Assembly: GCA_023379805.1 (NCBI GenBank)
Contig: JAMCPI010000007.1
Span: 62,001 to 126,000 of the forward strand
Length of the DNA: 64,000 nucleotides
Source of the DNA: Nitrososphaerota archaeon
GTDB lineage: Archaea; Thermoproteota; Nitrososphaeria; Nitrososphaerales; JACPRH01
Reading direction: 5' to 3'
How positions within the stretch are numbered: position 1 is the first letter of the stretch; the number at the start of each line of letters is the position of its first letter. The position numbers were made by a program, and so were the translations under genes. The notes under the pieces were generated by a model. The model ran no database searches. It was not told the origin of the DNA and saw nothing but the letters and a program-made list of their open reading frames with translations. Shown here one piece after another: positions 11,892 to 63,396 of this stretch.

Positions 11892-12953
11892 TTAAAACTT
11901 TCTCTGCACACTTCTATAGGCTCGGATATAGCCTACTGCACTCCAGAGCTGATCTTTGCTGCCTCCGGCGCGCCCAGTAGACGGATTATACCACTCGTTA
12001 AACCCGGGTAGATCGCTGAGCTTCCGAAACTCCTCCTCGGCCAGATCCTGCCGCCCAACCTTAGCCAGCGCAGCTACGGCATAGCCTTGAATATATGGCC
12101 AAACTGTGGAGTTCTGGTAATACTCCGGGGACTGACCGCACTCACGCTCCGGATAGCTCGGCCAAATATTTCTGATGCCCAACTGGGTTGAAGCATTCTG
12201 CAACGCCTCCACTATACGATCTACTCGACTTTCAGGCACAACATCTTCCAGCAGAGCGAGCGAATGCCCCAGTGCATCGAACCGTGAAGAGCCCGGATAA
12301 TCTCGGTAGTACCCCAGTTCCTCATCCCAGAACATCTCTTCAAGATGATGTTTGACTCTCTCAGCCTGCTCGTTTCGGCCAGTTAAGCTGTAGGCGATTA
12401 CAAGAAGTGCTTGGTTGCAGAAACTTGTCTTGCCAACATAGTTGAACATCGCGTCACGCCAGTCAGCATCAGGCATTAACCCGTCAGAGGTTACACGGTT
12501 CTCCATGTGCTGCCATATTCGCTTTATCTGCGCAGCATGCAACTCCTTGAATCCTTCATCGGGTCGAACTGCACTGTAACGTTCAATGCTGATCAAAGCC
12601 AGCGCATCGCTGTCACTAGTAGGGATCTCCCGGAACAGAAGAGTCGGGTTCCGCTCCAGAAGAGTCCTAGCCAGCCTGATTTGACTGACAACCGACGGTA
12701 TCCGCTCAAGAATCATCTCGGGCGCCTCACCGGATCGCTTCTGCCGCTCAAGCGTAAGTTCGAGCTGACGCTTCACGGTGTCCGCGAAGTCTACGCCTAG
12801 GTCAAGCAGCGGCTCAATACTATACGTTAAGTCACGGATCCAGTATTGCTTCCTGTAGAGTTGAGCGCTCGCGTAGAAACCGTTTCGACCGACGCACTTC
12901 CTTATTGTCTGCTCGGCAAGTTTAAGATTCTCTACGCTCGCTTCGTCCAGCAT
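11892..12953 (-). CDS. Six-hairpin (alpha/alpha) glycosidase-like protein
   Basis: A 353-residue, mainly helical protein with the pattern of (alpha/alpha)6-barrel glycosidases (trehalase, amylo-alpha-1,6-glucosidase and neutral-invertase-type families). Indicative stretches are QYWIRDLTYSIEPLLD (residues about 34-49), MPDADWRDAMFNYVGKTSFCNQALLVIAY (about 158-186), NIWPSYPE and NSTVWPYIQGYAVAALAK (about 285-302). The RD and DWRD acidic residues are candidate catalytic ones. No signal peptide, so it should act in the cytosol, perhaps on stored or imported oligosaccharide. The substrate cannot be inferred. Confidence 0.78.
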   Translation of the reverse strand: MLDEASVENLKLAEQTIRKCVGRNGFYASAQLYRKQYWIRDLTYSIEPLLDLGVDFADTVKRQLELTLERQKRSGEAPEMILERIPSVVSQIRLARTLLERNPTLLFREIPTSDSDALALISIERYSAVRPDEGFKELHAAQIKRIWQHMENRVTSDGLMPDADWRDAMFNYVGKTSFCNQALLVIAYSLTGRNEQAERVKHHLEEMFWDEELGYYRDYPGSSRFDALGHSLALLEDVVPESRVDRIVEALQNASTQLGIRNIWPSYPERECGQSPEYYQNSTVWPYIQGYAVAALAKVGRQDLAEEEFRKLSDLPGFNEWYNPSTGRAGGSKDQLWSAVGYIRAYRSVQRKF

Positions 12954-13033
12954 CTCTCAGCCATCTACTATAATCTATGGTAAAGGCTGGGCGCTGAATA
13001 TCTCTGCCGGTGTCGATCCAGTTATACTGTGTA

Positions 13034-14083
13034 CTATAGGATTGCAGTTGCCTTCTTGGCGATGACCTTGGCCATACCTGAGGTGGTTTCGCTGCCGCCT
13101 AGATCGTATGTGACATGCTTGCCTTCCTTGATCACTTCAATGGTAGCTTTGAAGATGGCGTCTGATAGCTTCTTTTCGCCTATGTACTCAAGCATCCAGG
13201 CACCTGAGAGGATTGTGGCTACTGGGTTCACCTTGTTCATTCCCTTGTATTTGGGTGCGCTTCCGTGAGCAGGCTCAAACATTGCGTATTTGTCACCGAT
13301 GTTGGCTGAGTAGATGCAGCCGATGCTTCCTACTAGGCCTGAAGCCTCTTCAGAGAGTATGTCCATGAAGAGGTTGGTGCTCATCACGATATTCTGGTTG
13401 AAGCGCTGTGGGTTCTTGATTAGCTGCTGGCTGAAGTTGTCGACAAAGTAAGGCTCCCACTCAATATCTGAATAGCCCTTCGCCACCTCCTCGACAATCT
13501 TCAGGAACATTCCGTCAGTCTCCTTCAGAATGTTTCCCTTGTTAATTACAACAACCTTCTTCCACTTCTTCTCGCGCGCCATGTCAAAGGCGTACTTCGC
13601 AATCCGGGTGCAGCTCTTCCGCGTAATCTTTCTGATGCTAATTGCGCAGTCGTCGCTCAGCCGGTGTTCTAGGCCCGAGTATAAACCCTCAGTACCTTCG
13701 CGGACACAAACAAAGTCAACTTCACCCAGCGGACCAACTTGGCCTGGGAATGTCTTTATTGGCCGAATGTTCGCGTATAGATCGAAGTATTGGCGAATAC
13801 CAACTGCGACGCTTTTGGGTGTGTTCGGGGTGGGAAGCGTTGTGGTTGGTCCCTTGTAGCATGCGTCTGAAGACTTCAAAACATCCCATGTCTCTGGTGG
13901 GATGAAGGATGGTCCTCCGTGCTCTTGCCACCACTCAAGTCCTGCATCGCAGGTGATGATTTTTGCCTTTGTTCCAACTGCGTTCAGGACTGTAAGCATC
14001 GCGTCGACCAACTCTGGTCCGGCGCCGTCTCCGCGAATTAATGCGATCTTCTTAGCCAATTGTGCTTCGGAAAAACGGGACAA
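13034..14083 (-). CDS. Isocitrate/isopropylmalate dehydrogenase family, isocitrate type
   Basis: A 349-residue beta-decarboxylating dehydrogenase. The N-terminus IALIRGDGAGPELVDA, the substrate loop with YANIRPIKTFPG, and the GTEGLYSGLEH motif resemble NAD-dependent isocitrate (or homoisocitrate) dehydrogenases more than LeuB. The active-site Lys lies in VVVINKGNILKETDG, and the cofactor-binding end is [19 protein letters not shown]. The annotated start is TTG at 14083; a second TTG eight codons on would give MAKKIALIRG, which is closer to family N-termini. It is one of two related genes here (see 15413-16543). It is probably the TCA-cycle isocitrate dehydrogenase, but homoisocitrate cannot be excluded. 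Confidence 0.87.
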   Translation of the reverse strand: MSRFSEAQLAKKIALIRGDGAGPELVDAMLTVLNAVGTKAKIITCDAGLEWWQEHGGPSFIPPETWDVLKSSDACYKGPTTTLPTPNTPKSVAVGIRQYFDLYANIRPIKTFPGQVGPLGEVDFVCVREGTEGLYSGLEHRLSDDCAISIRKITRKSCTRIAKYAFDMAREKKWKKVVVINKGNILKETDGMFLKIVEEVAKGYSDIEWEPYFVDNFSQQLIKNPQRFNQNIVMSTNLFMDILSEEASGLVGSIGCIYSANIGDKYAMFEPAHGSAPKYKGMNKVNPVATILSGAWMLEYIGEKKLSDAIFKATIEVIKEGKHVTYDLGGSETTSGMAKVIAKKATAIL

Positions 14084-14135
14084 AACTAGGGGTAGTTAAG
14101 CATTTAGAAGATCAGATCAGAGCTGCTGCATGAGA

Positions 14136-15272
14136 CTAGGGGGTATTTTTTCTCCTAAGAATAAGGAGTCCTAGCAACACAGCCACAGTACTAACACCTG
14201 CTACTGCCAATACTACCTGAGGATCCCAACCGGTTTCTGAGGCTCTTGCCTCTGCAGATGGAGCGGATAAAGTTCTCAGAAGCCAGACGTCGCCTCCCCA
14301 AATATCTCGCAAAACTAGAGAATCGTAGACCGCTTTGTTTTCGTCATAGATTCGGAAGTGGCCTTCAAGCGGCATCGGGAGGCTTGAAACCTCCATGACT
14401 GCTTCGGTGCCGTTTCTCGAAGCTACTCCTTTCGCGAGAGTCTTGTTCCCATACATAAGCTCGGCTGTCCAGCCTTGCTGCAATCCTTGTATGGTGATGG
14501 TGTTTCCATAGATCCGGAAGTCATCAATAATATGCTTGTGATTCAGGCCCCAAATACCTGAACCGAAGCCTACACCGCCGAAGGAGCGGTTAACCGGGCC
14601 TGACCAACGCAAGGTTTCGTCTTCATCGACGTAGGCTACAATCTCATTCTCCTGAACCATTAATTTAACCTGATGCCACTTATCATCCTCTGTTCTGCTG
14701 TCATTCACATAGACAAGGTGGTTGTTGATGTCATCCTTGAGGAACGCGATATGGTTAGGTGATGGATCGCCCATGCCGTATGCCTCTTTGCTGTTAAGAT
14801 AGTTGTCAAACTCTAACCCGTAGCCCGGTGCCACATTCCTAGGACAAGGTTTCTCAACAGGTCTACACAGGAAGCCTAGGTAACCGCCGATACCGGGCTC
14901 ATAATTCGAATCCTTATAGAACATAAAGACGAAGCCATCAGCTCCCGTTCCTCCACCGACGCGGTAACGAAACTCAGCGATAAACGGCGAAGTAACATTC
15001 CTTTTCAGCCAGATAACCCCGACACGCTCTGAACCCGGCTCCGTGAGAACTATCTGCTGGGCACCAGCATCCCACCGAGCAGCATTAAGAAACGTCCAGT
15101 TAATGATGGGATCCCTCGAAAAATCATCGCGCATCAGAACCGAGTTGCCTTCTTTGACAATGTCAAACCGCTCCTCCTTCCCCTGTACTGCGTTAGACGT
15201 GAGTAGCATTGGTAGTAGGAACGCAGCGGCCAGCATGAACGCAGCTATTTTTCTTATGCCCAATTTCGGCAT
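14136..15272 (-). CDS. Membrane-anchored surface protein with L-type-lectin-like domain
   Basis: A 378-residue exported protein. Residues about 7-32 are a signal peptide (IAAFMLAAAFLLPMLLTSNA). Residues about 45-250 look like a concanavalin/L-type lectin or LamG beta-sandwich: DDFSRDPIINWTF, FVFMFYKDSNYEPGIGGYLGF, GYGLEFDNYLN, WHQVKLMVQENEIVAYVDED and HIIDDFRIYG. A smaller beta domain (about 255-340) follows. The C-terminus has one transmembrane helix (VVLAVAGVSTVAVLLGLLIL) and a basic RRKN stop, so the lectin domain faces outside. Two cysteines in FLCRPVEKPCPRN may form a disulfide. It probably binds glycans or acts in surface attachment. Confidence 0.82.
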   Translation of the reverse strand: MPKLGIRKIAAFMLAAAFLLPMLLTSNAVQGKEERFDIVKEGNSVLMRDDFSRDPIINWTFLNAARWDAGAQQIVLTEPGSERVGVIWLKRNVTSPFIAEFRYRVGGGTGADGFVFMFYKDSNYEPGIGGYLGFLCRPVEKPCPRNVAPGYGLEFDNYLNSKEAYGMGDPSPNHIAFLKDDINNHLVYVNDSRTEDDKWHQVKLMVQENEIVAYVDEDETLRWSGPVNRSFGGVGFGSGIWGLNHKHIIDDFRIYGNTITIQGLQQGWTAELMYGNKTLAKGVASRNGTEAVMEVSSLPMPLEGHFRIYDENKAVYDSLVLRDIWGGDVWLLRTLSAPSAEARASETGWDPQVVLAVAGVSTVAVLLGLLILRRKNTP

Positions 15273-22877: not shown

Positions 22878-24737
22878 CTACTTCACTGATTTTCTTCGTA
22901 GGCTTACCAAGGCGATTCCTCCCATCACGATTGCAACAGCGATTGCGATGTAGACTACCTCATCTGTGAATGTTCCTCCGCCGTCGGAAGATCCATCTTC
23001 ACGTAAAGCGAAGGCCGTTAATGTACCGGGTGTGGGTACAATGATGTCTCCTCCGCCAGAAGGTACGAAAAGCATTGTTACACCTCTTGGGTTCTGGCCG
23101 ATTGCTACTCCGGCTGCGCCTAGTCCACCGAAGGAGATTGTTCTGAGAAGCTGCCCATTCTGTTCATCTAGCATGTAGAGCGTTCCAATTCTGTCCTGCG
23201 CGTAGACAACTCCTCCACTGACGATAATACCTGCTCCTTGGTATGGGTTAGGCATGTTGTATTGCCACTTGATGCTGCCTGAGGTGGCGTCGATGGCGTA
23301 GAGCGTCGAGTTTTGGGGTCTGTCCATCACTGGGCCAGCTACCCATACTGTGCTTCCTTTGTACGCGTTCGGAACTGGTCGCCAATCAAAGCATCGGTTC
23401 TGAGCCGCAGCAAAAATGGTGTTGTGTGCGACAGCTACTGGCGACTCGATTCCACCGTTTCCTCCGGGACAAGAAACTCCTTGCTGCTGGTTCATCGTCA
23501 TGTCTGCATCGTTACCTTTGTTCGTGTTGTAGTCGTTGAGATGCGTACCTACCTTTACAGGCTGTATGAGCGGCTGCCCTGTCTCAGCGTCGAGCTCATA
23601 GACGTATCCGTTCTTGCTGCCGGTGACTATGACCTTCTTTTCCTTCCCGTCAACCGTAACTTTGGCGAGTATCGTATTCCATCCGAAGCCGTGCTGAGTT
23701 ACATCGTGAGGTGTTACTTGGTAATACCACTTCATCTTGCCTGACAGCACGTCGAGCGCCACTATTGAGTTGGTGTACAGGTTTGGCCCAGGTCTTCTTG
23801 ACGCATCTCCATTGCCTGCGAGAGTCAGGCCGATGCCGGGGTAACCAGTCGAGGTATAAACCGTATTCGTGTCTTCATCTATGGAGCTTGAGACCCAAGC
23901 TGAGCCTCCCCAGATCTCGCTGCTGTTTCCCCAGTCTCCAGGGTAGAGCTTGATGTTGCCTTTGCTTACGTCTTTGTATCCTTCCCAGCTATCCTTAGAT
24001 CCCTCAACATCAGGTGGGATAACGAACCAACGCCACAGCAATTCTTTAGTTTGAAGATCGTAAGCTGCGACGAAGCCTCGCGCATAGAAGAGTCCAGCTG
24101 CGACAGGTACTATAGCTATCTTCCGCCCGTCCTTCTCATAAATTGTAGGCGCCTCTTCTCCGAAGTATAATCCTCTGTTCCCCGGTACGTCTTTGCAGAT
24201 ATCATCGATCTGCAGCTTCACTTTACCATTGCTCGCATCGAGACCGTAAAGGGTGCAGTCTATTGCTAGCTGATAAATGAGGCCGTCTTTGTATACAATC
24301 GCGTGTTGTACTCCAAAGTTACCAATATAGGGCTTCTGAAGCGCCTTAGTTACATTCACCTCGTGGCTCCACAACAGAATTCCGGTGGCGGCATTTACTG
24401 CGAACACCTTGCTGTAGGACGCGGCGAAGTAAACTACTCCGTTCACGACCAACGGATTTGTCTCAAGACCCAGTGATGGTTGCAGAATATTGCGATACGG
24501 GTTCGAAGGAAGCTGGTAAACCCATTTGAATTCAAGATTCTTCACATTGTCCTTGTTAATCACTGTCTGTGGATTGAATCCAGTGTGTTTGTAATCGTAG
24601 CCCGTGGCAACCGAGTCACCTGTGGGCTGCGGCTGCTGCGGTTGTTGCTGGCCCACTGCTGCCTGAGGTACTACGAGTATCATCATGCTGGAGGATAGGA
24701 TTAGGAGAATTATCGAAGTCGCGAGAAGTCGGGTCAT
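22878..24737 (-). CDS. Membrane-anchored PQQ-type beta-propeller protein lacking the catalytic residues
   Basis: A 619-residue exported protein. It has a signal peptide (residues about 4-29), an eight-bladed quinoprotein-type propeller (about 45-580) with repeated LYALDATSGxxxW-type strands, and a C-terminal helix (VVYIAIAVAIVMGGIAL) followed by RRKS, leaving the propeller outside. It resembles type I PQQ alcohol dehydrogenases but differs at the active site: the metal Asn is Tyr299 (TGYPG), the catalytic Asp is Gln348 (TPHDVTQHG), the lanthanide Asp is Gly350, and the metal Glu is Leu216. The Arg in FYARGF is kept. It may therefore bind no metal or act non-catalytically. A TATA-like element (24761-24770) lies about 29 nt before the ATG. 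Confidence 0.88.
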   Translation of the reverse strand: MTRLLATSIILLILSSSMMILVVPQAAVGQQQPQQPQPTGDSVATGYDYKHTGFNPQTVINKDNVKNLEFKWVYQLPSNPYRNILQPSLGLETNPLVVNGVVYFAASYSKVFAVNAATGILLWSHEVNVTKALQKPYIGNFGVQHAIVYKDGLIYQLAIDCTLYGLDASNGKVKLQIDDICKDVPGNRGLYFGEEAPTIYEKDGRKIAIVPVAAGLFYARGFVAAYDLQTKELLWRWFVIPPDVEGSKDSWEGYKDVSKGNIKLYPGDWGNSSEIWGGSAWVSSSIDEDTNTVYTSTGYPGIGLTLAGNGDASRRPGPNLYTNSIVALDVLSGKMKWYYQVTPHDVTQHGFGWNTILAKVTVDGKEKKVIVTGSKNGYVYELDAETGQPLIQPVKVGTHLNDYNTNKGNDADMTMNQQQGVSCPGGNGGIESPVAVAHNTIFAAAQNRCFDWRPVPNAYKGSTVWVAGPVMDRPQNSTLYAIDATSGSIKWQYNMPNPYQGAGIIVSGGVVYAQDRIGTLYMLDEQNGQLLRTISFGGLGAAGVAIGQNPRGVTMLFVPSGGGDIIVPTPGTLTAFALREDGSSDGGGTFTDEVVYIAIAVAIVMGGIALVSLRRKSVK

Positions 24738-24803
24738 ACTTTACAGATGCGGGTCTTGCCATTAATATATTGTTTCCTTTTGTCGAGTGTAAAATGTTCC
24801 GGT

Positions 24804-25913
24804 TTAACCGTATTTTTTCCCGGCGTCTATGAGCATCTTAACATTCTCAAACCTAGCATTGTACGGAACAATATCGTCGTTCGCTAGAATGAATCCGTCA
24901 CGTCCAACGCTGTCAATCAGCTTCTTGCAGTATGTCTCTACGCTGGCTGGGGAACCTGCTGAGAGAAGGCTTCTCGAGACGTTGCCGTACAGACACATAT
25001 GACCTCCAAGCAGTTCTCTAGCCCGCTTGATGTTGGTGGCTGGGCTGAGCTCGAGAATGCAGCTCCTTTTCGGCAGATCACGGAAATATTCTAGGAATGG
25101 CTCCCAGTCTGTGTCGCAGTGTAGACGAGGCGTAAACCCGTCACGGACAAGTTTCTCAGTGATCTTCTTGAGATGTGGGAAAACGTATTCTAGGAAAAGC
25201 CTCTCCGAGAGAAAGGTCGCAGAGGCTCGGCCACAAGGCATGAAAATGTAGTTGCAGCCAACTATACGACTGTGCTTCTCGCCGATCGTGATTGTCTCAT
25301 CCAAAACCGCGTCGAAAGTCTCTTTCACCTTGTCACCCTGCTTCAGGAGGTCATGCGCCATTCCCCGCCATGTGCGCCACATTGAGAACTGTACGAATGG
25401 GGGCCTCACCATGCCTCCACGGTAAACTGGGACACCCTTCTCCTCATCCCAGCGTCTGTAAATGGGTGTAAACGAGGTGAATACCTCATTACTTGTGTTT
25501 CTATCTATCTTCTTTCCGAGTCTGTCAAGCAGAACAGTTGCTAAGCTGTACAGTCCGTCTTTAGCGGCTAGATCATAATCCTCAGGTGTCATCACTGGAT
25601 AGTCAACAACTCTGTGCGGAAGCTGCTCGGGGAAATCTACCCCCGGGAACTGAACTTTAGCCGCCTCAAGCCTGCTCCACCGGGTGCCCATCGTCCAGGA
25701 TGCGTCCACAGCGTCCCACCCACCCATCTTATCGAACACCTGCTCAATCGCGTTGGATGCCTTTAGAGGATCGAAAGCAAAATCCTTGAAGCTTAGCTCA
25801 GTCCAGCGTGCGGCGGCATACTCAAGCCTAATGGTGATTGGAACACGGTCAGGTGTCTTGCACTCAACAGCTCTTCTAAGCCTCTCTCTCGACTGGTTCA
25901 CTTCTTTAGGCAT
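24804..25913 (-). CDS. Uroporphyrinogen-decarboxylase-family methyltransferase-like protein
   Basis: A 369-residue TIM-barrel protein of the URO-D superfamily. In archaea such proteins are mostly corrinoid-dependent methyltransferases (MtaA/CmuA-like) rather than heme enzymes. Recognisable are RAVECKTPDRVPI near residues 14-26, LHCDTDWEPFLEYF (possible zinc ligands His and Cys) and CLYGNVSRSLLSAGSP near the C-terminus. No heme genes are nearby. The next gene upstream on the same strand encodes a corrinoid-protein cap domain, which strengthens the methyltransferase idea. The methyl donor is unknown. Confidence 0.85.
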   Translation of the reverse strand: MPKEVNQSRERLRRAVECKTPDRVPITIRLEYAAARWTELSFKDFAFDPLKASNAIEQVFDKMGGWDAVDASWTMGTRWSRLEAAKVQFPGVDFPEQLPHRVVDYPVMTPEDYDLAAKDGLYSLATVLLDRLGKKIDRNTSNEVFTSFTPIYRRWDEEKGVPVYRGGMVRPPFVQFSMWRTWRGMAHDLLKQGDKVKETFDAVLDETITIGEKHSRIVGCNYIFMPCGRASATFLSERLFLEYVFPHLKKITEKLVRDGFTPRLHCDTDWEPFLEYFRDLPKRSCILELSPATNIKRARELLGGHMCLYGNVSRSLLSAGSPASVETYCKKLIDSVGRDGFILANDDIVPYNARFENVKMLIDAGKKYG

Positions 25914-61224: not shown

Positions 61225-63396
61225 CTATTTCTTCCGCATTACTAGTACTGCTGCTGCGATGATAGCTATTACAGCTACACCGACTGCTGCGTAAGTGACT
61301 TCAGAAGGCAGACCCGTTGTTTGAGTAACCTGTGAGGTTATTGTTGTGGTTTGTGCTGGCGCTGTTGTTGTTACTGTGGCTGTGGTGGATGAAGTTGATG
61401 TTATGGTTGTGCTCTGGGTTGTGGTTTGTGTTGTTGTGACTGTTGATGTTTGCGGTGTGGCTCCTGATTGTGATCCTAATCCGACTGCTACGAGGACTCC
61501 TGGGTTAGTTGGTGTAAGACGTCCTGCTGCGGTGACGCCGAGGACTGTGAAGATCAGCTGGTTGCCCGCTGAGTCTTGACCCGTGGTGAGACCTACTCTC
61601 ATGTCTGAGCCTAGGTTCAACTCTCGTAGTACTTTACCTGAGTCTTTGTCTAGGAATCTCATGTAGCCGTCTGTGAAGCCTGCGAAGATTAGGCTGGGTG
61701 TTACCACCATTGCTGAGCGCTGTTGACTTATTGGCCAGAACCAAGTCCACTTGACTTTGCCTGTTGCTACGTCGCGTGCAACGATCGATGTGTTTGTGAT
61801 TGGATAGCCTTGCGTGATGCTTACTGATCCTCCGATTACGGGCGGCGGAGATTTCAGTATCGTTGTCTGCAAACCTACTGCATAGTGGAACAGTGTGCCT
61901 GTCTGTGGATCGTAGCTCATGTCTGTGCCGAAGATTCCGTTGCTGAAGTTAGGGTAAACATTGCATGGTCTTCCACAGTAGGTGCTGTTGTCTGGAGAGA
62001 CCAATTCTCTCATGTCGTAGCGACTGAATGGGTCTGTGAAGTGATATCTGACACCGCCTTGGTTAGGCTCCTTAAGTGCCGCTGGTGTTATTTGTCCCCA
62101 CTCCACCTGCTCGTTGACTACATCATTAACGCGTATTGGCTTACCTGTCTTAGCGTCAAGGATGTTGAGGTGGCCTTCTTTGCATCCCTTCATGTAGACT
62201 TTGCCTAGTCCTTGCACATCCGCCAATACTCCGCTCCAGTTGCAGTCGTAGTCGTATGGATCGCGTGGGAACGGTTGGTACCACCATATGCGTTTGCCTT
62301 GGTTAAGGTCAATAGCCATTATGGTTGAGCCGTAAAGTCTTGGTCCAGGTGTCGTGCCTACGTATGTGTAGGGTCCTTGGTTGCCTGTTTGTGTGTAGGC
62401 AATTCCTGTTTCCTCATCTACGACGATTTGTCCCCAGTTAGCTGTGACTCCTCCGTAGATGTTGGGTTTTTCACCTGGTTGGGTCCAGTCCCATTCAAGG
62501 TTTCCTGGAGCCTTAGATGCTACTTCTTTGCATGGTGTGGTTAGGAAGTACCCTGTATCACACTCCTGTGTTGCCCAGTCCTTGGTGGTTACGTCTTGAG
62601 GTGGGAAGCTGTAGACCCGCCAGACCACTTTGTGTGTTGTCATGTCGATGCCCTCTGTTGTGTGGCGGAAGTCACCTGCGTAGATGTTGCTGTGCATTGC
62701 ACCGGGTAGAACTATTATGAACTGGTTACCTTTGTCGTAGGTTCCGATGTTTGCTTGGCTAACTGTGCCTTGCCTCATCTTGTATAAGTTGCCGGGGATG
62801 TCTTTGCATAGGTCTTGAATCCAGAAGGTGTTTTTGCCTGTTGTGGCGTCGATGCCGTAGAAGTCACAGGCCATGCCGCTGACTAGGATTGCGTTTTGTG
62901 CTTGCCAGTATCTGAAGCCGTGCAGATGCATGTTGAGGGATCCTAATGGTCCTGCGTGGTTAGGGAGCAAAACCGGTAGTCTTGCTTCTATGTCGGTGCC
63001 GTTGATGACGTAGTCATACCTCCAGGCCTGTTTCCCGGTCTTCGCGTCAACTGCGTATGTTCTGAGGTAGTTTGTGGTTACGTAGACTTTGCCGTTTACA
63101 ACGATGGGCGGTGTTGTAGATCCTTCGTTGCTGATGAATGCCTGTATTGCTGGGTTCGCCTGACTCCTTCCCTCTAATGGAAAGAGCCACTTTACCTCTA
63201 GGTTGTTGACATTGTTCTTGTTGATCTGTGTTTCTGGACTGTAGTTCCATGCCCAACTGTTGCCGTTCACGTACTGCCAATCCTTCTCGGAGTTGGCTAG
63301 TGGCGCCGCGAACGCCAATGCTGGCATGAATGTGCCGAATGTGAGAATTACGAGTATTCCTAATAGACTTATTCTGTATTTGCTAGGATAACTCAT
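61225..63396 (-). CDS. Membrane-anchored PQQ-dependent alcohol dehydrogenase-like protein, lanthanide-type residues
   Basis: A 723-residue exported quinoprotein. It has a signal peptide (residues about 8-31), an eight-bladed propeller (about 40-645), a Thr/Ser/Gln stalk (about 648-695) and a C-terminal helix (VTYAAVGVAVIAIIAAAVLVMRKK). Active-site residues typical of XoxF methanol dehydrogenase are present: Asn339 (TGNQGP), catalytic Asp382 and the additional lanthanide Asp384 (PYDYDCN). The spacing Asn to Asp is 43, as in XoxF. The Glu ligand is less clear; Asp242 (AGDFRHTTE) is a candidate. The usual adjacent Cys-Cys disulfide is not seen. It probably oxidises alcohols outside the cell, feeding the quinone pool. 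PQQ synthesis genes are not in the window. Confidence 0.9.
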   Translation of the reverse strand: MSYPSKYRISLLGILVILTFGTFMPALAFAAPLANSEKDWQYVNGNSWAWNYSPETQINKNNVNNLEVKWLFPLEGRSQANPAIQAFISNEGSTTPPIVVNGKVYVTTNYLRTYAVDAKTGKQAWRYDYVINGTDIEARLPVLLPNHAGPLGSLNMHLHGFRYWQAQNAILVSGMACDFYGIDATTGKNTFWIQDLCKDIPGNLYKMRQGTVSQANIGTYDKGNQFIIVLPGAMHSNIYAGDFRHTTEGIDMTTHKVVWRVYSFPPQDVTTKDWATQECDTGYFLTTPCKEVASKAPGNLEWDWTQPGEKPNIYGGVTANWGQIVVDEETGIAYTQTGNQGPYTYVGTTPGPRLYGSTIMAIDLNQGKRIWWYQPFPRDPYDYDCNWSGVLADVQGLGKVYMKGCKEGHLNILDAKTGKPIRVNDVVNEQVEWGQITPAALKEPNQGGVRYHFTDPFSRYDMRELVSPDNSTYCGRPCNVYPNFSNGIFGTDMSYDPQTGTLFHYAVGLQTTILKSPPPVIGGSVSITQGYPITNTSIVARDVATGKVKWTWFWPISQQRSAMVVTPSLIFAGFTDGYMRFLDKDSGKVLRELNLGSDMRVGLTTGQDSAGNQLIFTVLGVTAAGRLTPTNPGVLVAVGLGSQSGATPQTSTVTTTQTTTQSTTITSTSSTTATVTTTAPAQTTTITSQVTQTTGLPSEVTYAAVGVAVIAIIAAAVLVMRKK

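Follow-up and report, generated by a model that had tools for sequence, protein, structure and literature searches.

The window, the 64,000-nucleotide stretch of archaeal DNA analyzed here, carries on its minus strand an ATG-initiated open reading frame for a 723-aa protein (Table 1). By profile and fold this protein is a quinoprotein. It scored 128.7 bits (cut-off 26.7) against PF01011, the Pfam quinoprotein (PQQ) alcohol dehydrogenase superfamily domain, and profile-profile alignment (hhalign) matched it to bacterial PQQ dehydrogenases with a probability of 100 (E 1.5e-48). When the AlphaFold models were searched with Foldseek, PQQ dehydrogenases filled the top ranks at E-values of 7e-23 to 2e-30, the next class reached only ~1e-13, and XoxF (6dam) ranked first in the PDB for both models. 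The full-length AF2 model had a pLDDT of 70.6 with a poor metal loop; the trimmed-core model reached 80.4 (pTM 0.87) and was weak near Asn339 (core residues 301-310, mean 54), the metal loops in both being of moderate to low confidence. A sequence search found no member of the archaeal family among solved structures.

Table 1. Features of the 723-aa protein and of a remote paralogue, with their positions in the window
Feature	Position	Strand	Basis or conservation
Quinoprotein dehydrogenase-like protein, 723 aa	61225..63396	-	ORF; PF01011 E 3.9e-37; Foldseek top XoxF 6dam E 2.2e-30
N-terminal signal helix, residues 1-31	63304..63396	-	AF2 helix 6-29; hydropathy 2.23; in 42/42 relatives
H157-x-H159, at the place of the PQQ-contacting VN-Arg-G loop of bacterial enzymes	62920..62928	-	44/44 invariant
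Loop LPGAMHSNIYAGDFRH, residues 230-245, at the XoxF Glu-ligand site (SGGEFGVR)	62662..62709	-	Glu lost; Asp at R-2 in 37/44
Asn339, metal-ligand Asn equivalent	62380..62382	-	44/44 invariant; N, Q, D or E in the rest of the archaeal DxD clade
Asp382, catalytic/metal Asp equivalent	62251..62253	-	44/44 invariant
Asp384, corresponding to the extra Asp of lanthanide enzymes	62245..62247	-	Invariant in all archaeal DxD-clade homologues
Cys385, predicted disulfide partner of Cys405	62242..62244	-	Both Cys present or both absent in archaeal homologues
Cys405 in KGCKEG, followed by Lys406 (= PQQ-contacting Arg/Lys331)	62182..62184	-	
Thr/Ser-rich stalk	61321..61455	-	T+S = 67%; low-confidence/disordered in AF2 model
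C-terminal membrane helix, then RKK	61243..61305	-	AF2 helix 700-722; hydropathy 2.69
Remote paralogue, 619 aa, without Asn, Asp and Asp	22878..24737	-	Same window

A reading made earlier from the sequence alone (the sequence-only reading) had noticed a C-terminal membrane helix after a Thr-rich stalk, and hydropathy, composition and the AF2 model bear this out. The C-terminal helix, like the N-terminal one, was present in all relatives tested (42/42), and searches of NCBIfam and Pfam did not match the anchor to a named sorting signal. The C-terminal tail GLPSEVTYAAVGVAVIAIIAAAVLVMRKK (window 61225-61320) was near-identical across paralogues of the host genome whose bodies share only 50-60%, and a tail resembling it was also found on an unrelated protein (L103:51-1679). 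It has no family-model match and could be either a surface-anchor module that these proteins have in common or the outcome of gene conversion.

Asn339 lies within YTQTGNQGP, and Asp382 and Asp384 lie within DPYDYDC, at spacings of 43 and 2 residues as first read. Profile-profile alignment placed the three residues on the Asn, the catalytic Asp and the extra Asp of XoxF. They are invariant in 44/44 aligned family members, and their occurrence is therefore not due to chance. The spacing itself, which the sequence-only reading took as a match to XoxF, did not hold up as evidence: the aligned bacterial XoxF5 rows have 42 rather than 43, and rows lacking the extra Asp (D-x-A, D-x-S) show both 42 and 43, so the spacing is not XoxF-specific.

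Metal-ligand roles have been described for both Glu and Asp in MxaF and XoxF (PMC8546591). The Glu of the XoxF motif SGGEFGVR aligns to LPGAMHSNIYAGDFR in the window protein, and the Glu motif is missing in 44/44 family members; the earlier remark that this ligand was "not obvious" was correct. Asp243, two residues ahead of a conserved Arg, is kept in 37/44 members and could serve as a third carboxylate in most paralogues. Unless it does so, Asp382 and Asp384 would be the two sure carboxylates of the predicted site, as in Ca enzymes (Glu plus Asp), vs. three in XoxF.

In a class-wide search of 250 genomes, with four candidates scored per genome at a strict E-value, related enzymes were detected in at least 8 genomes, a lower bound, belonging to four families (f1, which is that of the window protein, f8, f5 and f15). 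The D-x-D motif was common to all of them, and the archaeal sequences formed a group apart from the bacterial rows in the tree (SH-aLRT 100). Thirteen of the archaeal D-x-D homologues carry an E-G motif ahead of the Arg, and in 12 of these 13 the Asn position is occupied by Gln; the remaining 11, in which the motif is missing, have Asn, Asp or Glu there and never Gln (0/11). This covariation suggests that both positions contact the same metal, though the rows share ancestry. Most of the sister enzymes combine the Glu motif (EGT..GGR) with Gln where the window family has Asn, and their genomes encode PqqC. The window family itself has neither the E-G-motif Glu nor PqqC, and its Asn site carries no acidic residue.

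The genomes of family f8 are small, their homologues have DxD-C, HxH and KGCKNG, and, judging from genome size and PQQ-dehydrogenase content, the family is probably the heterotrophic marine thaumarchaeal (HMT) group. PQQ dehydrogenases of HMT were described in 2020 as multi-copy and membrane-associated, with DYD and without Cys-Cys (Aylward and Santoro, PMC7300363). They resemble the window family in being thaumarchaeal and multi-copy, in lacking Cys-Cys, in having DYD/DxD in some members and in their membrane or signal segments. The window family shows these HMT-type features: DxD-C, a second Cys before Lys, HxH, the W-G motif and no Cys-Cys. PQQ dehydrogenases were reported from soil Gagatemarchaeaceae in 2023 (PMC10640624), and their expansion in Bathyarchaeia in 2024 (PMC11697101). 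A search of an open-access library returned no earlier account of the Glu loss, of the H-x-H, of the covarying Cys pair or of the match between the Glu loss and missing PqqC. What the present analysis adds is the Glu loss, its co-occurrence with the lack of PqqC, and the conservation across the whole family.

Besides the putative metal ligands, His157, His159, Trp321, Cys385, Cys405 and Lys406 are invariant across the 44 members, and HxH was found in every archaeal DxD homologue covering that region. In archaeal homologues Cys385 and Cys405 are either both present or both absent, a pattern that fits the disulfide predicted between them next to the site. In MxaF and XoxF, Glu55, Thr159, Asn394, Trp476 and an Arg loop contact PQQ. 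When compared with the bacterial enzymes, Glu55, Arg109, Thr159, Glu177, Asn394 and Trp476 (MxaF numbering) were not conserved, and the adjacent Cys-Cys disulfide ring was absent from the window family; the change of several contacts counts against the predicted binding of PQQ. The window protein shares with XoxF (6dam, 4mae, 6oc5) the fold, the Asn, the catalytic Asp, the extra Asp and the floor Trp. In contrast to XoxF, to which it is ~20% identical, it has no Glu ligand, Cys-Cys ring or PQQ Arg, it ends in a stalk and a membrane helix, and pqq genes were not found in its genome. The sequence-only reading had proposed a possible lanthanide-dependent alcohol oxidase with XoxF-type residues, tethered to the cell surface. 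Its description of an archaeal protein with a quinoprotein fold, XoxF-like Asn/Asp/Asp and a surface tether stands, but XoxF identity is not supported: the protein has no Glu ligand or Cys-Cys ring, lacks equivalents of Glu55, Arg109 and Trp476, and scored 160.4 bits against TIGR03075 (methanol/ethanol PQQ dehydrogenase), below the curated cut-off of 480 bits.

The host genome is thaumarchaeal (2.34 Mb, 95% complete) and contains 26 near-full-length copies, namely the query and 25 paralogues that are 49-74% identical to it. An internal stop interrupts one of the 26, leaving about 25 intact, and truncated or broken copies occur besides. The nearest named relatives come from Thaumarchaeota/Nitrososphaerota MAGs, mostly from one groundwater MAG. 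Many paralogues pair one-to-one between the host genome and this MAG in the tree, indicating that the expansion is older than their split. Orthologue pairs from the two genomes gave dN/dS values of 0.07-0.16 which, together with the invariant residues, indicate that the genes are under selection rather than drifting. Four more remote paralogues in the genome all lack the Asn, Asp and Asp. One of them, the window gene at 22878-24737, lies in the region 22878-25913 beside a gene of the URO-D family that resembles MtaA/CmuA methyltransferases.

PQQ supply was analyzed by searching for PqqC, PqqD and PqqE. PqqC was present in 6/6 sampled f8, f5 and f15 genomes having related enzymes (two hits passed the curated cut-off, and the rest, although strong, fell short of it), and in one sister genome (G213 C22) it adjoins a quinoprotein gene (12521-14272 and 14428-15102). 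It was absent in 5/5 f1 genomes searched, including the host genome, which also lacks PF03070; the search detected the pqqC carried by plasmid pSymB, used as positive control. A search of eight archaeal genomes gave no PqqD, and in nine no hit to PqqE exceeded its cut-off; the host was among both sets. PqqE candidates in the host genome (C12:144-146 kb and C3:69.7 kb) were rejected because their best matches were heme and molybdopterin enzymes, namely the heme b synthase AhbD, AhbC and MoaA. Contig C12 of this genome contains a cluster for an alternative heme pathway (L092:8142-13934), in which radical SAM genes resembling AhbC and AhbD lie next to genes like those for Lrp, HemD, CobA and HemC. 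At the search sensitivity used, the host very probably does not make PQQ via the known route. The sequence-only reading had named a genome without PQQ-synthesis or uptake genes as evidence against its proposal; PqqC, PqqD and PqqE are indeed missing, but uptake is possible because the enzyme should face outward on a cell without an outer membrane. We know of no PQQ uptake gene in archaea.

We consider it somewhat probable that the 723-aa protein is a surface-anchored quinoprotein dehydrogenase that would work with scavenged PQQ and one metal, either Ca or a lanthanide. The enzyme, one of about 25 such paralogues, would face outward on an aerobic, probably heterotrophic thaumarchaeon. Its PQQ-dehydrogenase propeller would hold PQQ and one metal on Asn339, Asp382 and Asp384 (possibly also Asp243, in most paralogues), Asp382 would act as the base that deprotonates a hydroxyl of an alcohol or sugar, and the electrons would pass via surface or membrane carriers to a terminal oxidase. 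A heme-copper terminal oxidase is present in the host genome. Because the searches turned up no gene of PQQ synthesis, the cofactor would come from outside the cell. Maintenance of the metal site is argued for by the invariant Asn, Asp and Asp and by the restriction of the Asn-site residue to N, Q, D or E in the other archaeal DxD homologues.

It is rather unlikely, in our view, that the protein is a lanthanide-dependent, XoxF-like alcohol dehydrogenase in which Asp384 would demand Ln3+ and Asp243 or water would stand in for the Glu. The invariance of Asp384 in all archaeal DxD homologues and the lead of XoxF structures among the fold matches would fit such an enzyme, and D-x-D is taken as a lanthanide marker in the literature; the same motif, however, occurs in bacterial m-GDH, which accepts several metals (PMC11996626). 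With the Glu lost, only two carboxylates are invariant, as in the Ca enzymes, and the Asp at R-2 is present in just 37/44 members. D-x-D alone is not enough to assign lanthanide dependence here. A family without PQQ synthesis might instead have moved to another metal, such as Cu, Zn or Fe bound by H157-x-H159 and the Asp pair, or to another quinone. Consistent with this, the invariant HxH stands where the PQQ-contact Arg was, PqqC is missing only in the window family among the lineages with related enzymes, and the stem branch is long (1.19) with many altered contacts. HxH, however, is common to sister lineages that retain PqqC and so did not arise with the loss of PqqC, and the family still has Trp321, Asn, Asp and Lys406, which makes such a change improbable. 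A non-catalytic surface beta-propeller for binding or adhesion, with the folding core alone retained, would find parallels in the "empty" quinoproteins, a known class (TIGR04528), and in the four remote paralogues; it is very improbable for a protein whose active-site residues are invariant in an expanded family with a mean column identity of 55% across 44 members.

It is possible, if doubtful, that an archaeal family without PQQ synthesis expanded quinoproteins in which the Glu was dropped and the extra Asp kept, giving a site unlike those of both Ca and lanthanide enzymes that would use scavenged PQQ with new ligands, or a new cofactor. If so, D-x-D by itself would not diagnose lanthanide use; metagenomic surveys score D-x-D quinoproteins as lanthanide enzymes. 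Because D-x-D is kept without the Glu ligand or PQQ-synthesis genes, in many copies and under strong purifying selection, the family offers a direct test of this rule: lanthanide dependence would mean a rare-earth enzyme in Archaea, and otherwise archaeal lanthanide counts would need revision. The family also points to PQQ cross-feeding by other microbes.

The sorbose/type I PQQ alcohol dehydrogenases (4cvb, 7wmd, 9m2c and the Ketogulonicigenium row L111) share with the window family the absence of an adjacent Cys-Cys. Row L111 likewise has no Glu ligand, and has one Cys after the Asp motif and another before the Lys (WDQEC/PCKTG vs. YDYDC/GCKEG), but it differs in having Ala at the Asn site, D-x-E rather than D-x-D, and no C-terminal stalk. 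In two sister-lineage quinoproteins (L124, G171 C11:23533-25515, and L131, G166 C1:404011-405981) the catalytic Asp is replaced by Glu (VEGD), and the pair equivalent to Cys385 and Cys405 is lost together.
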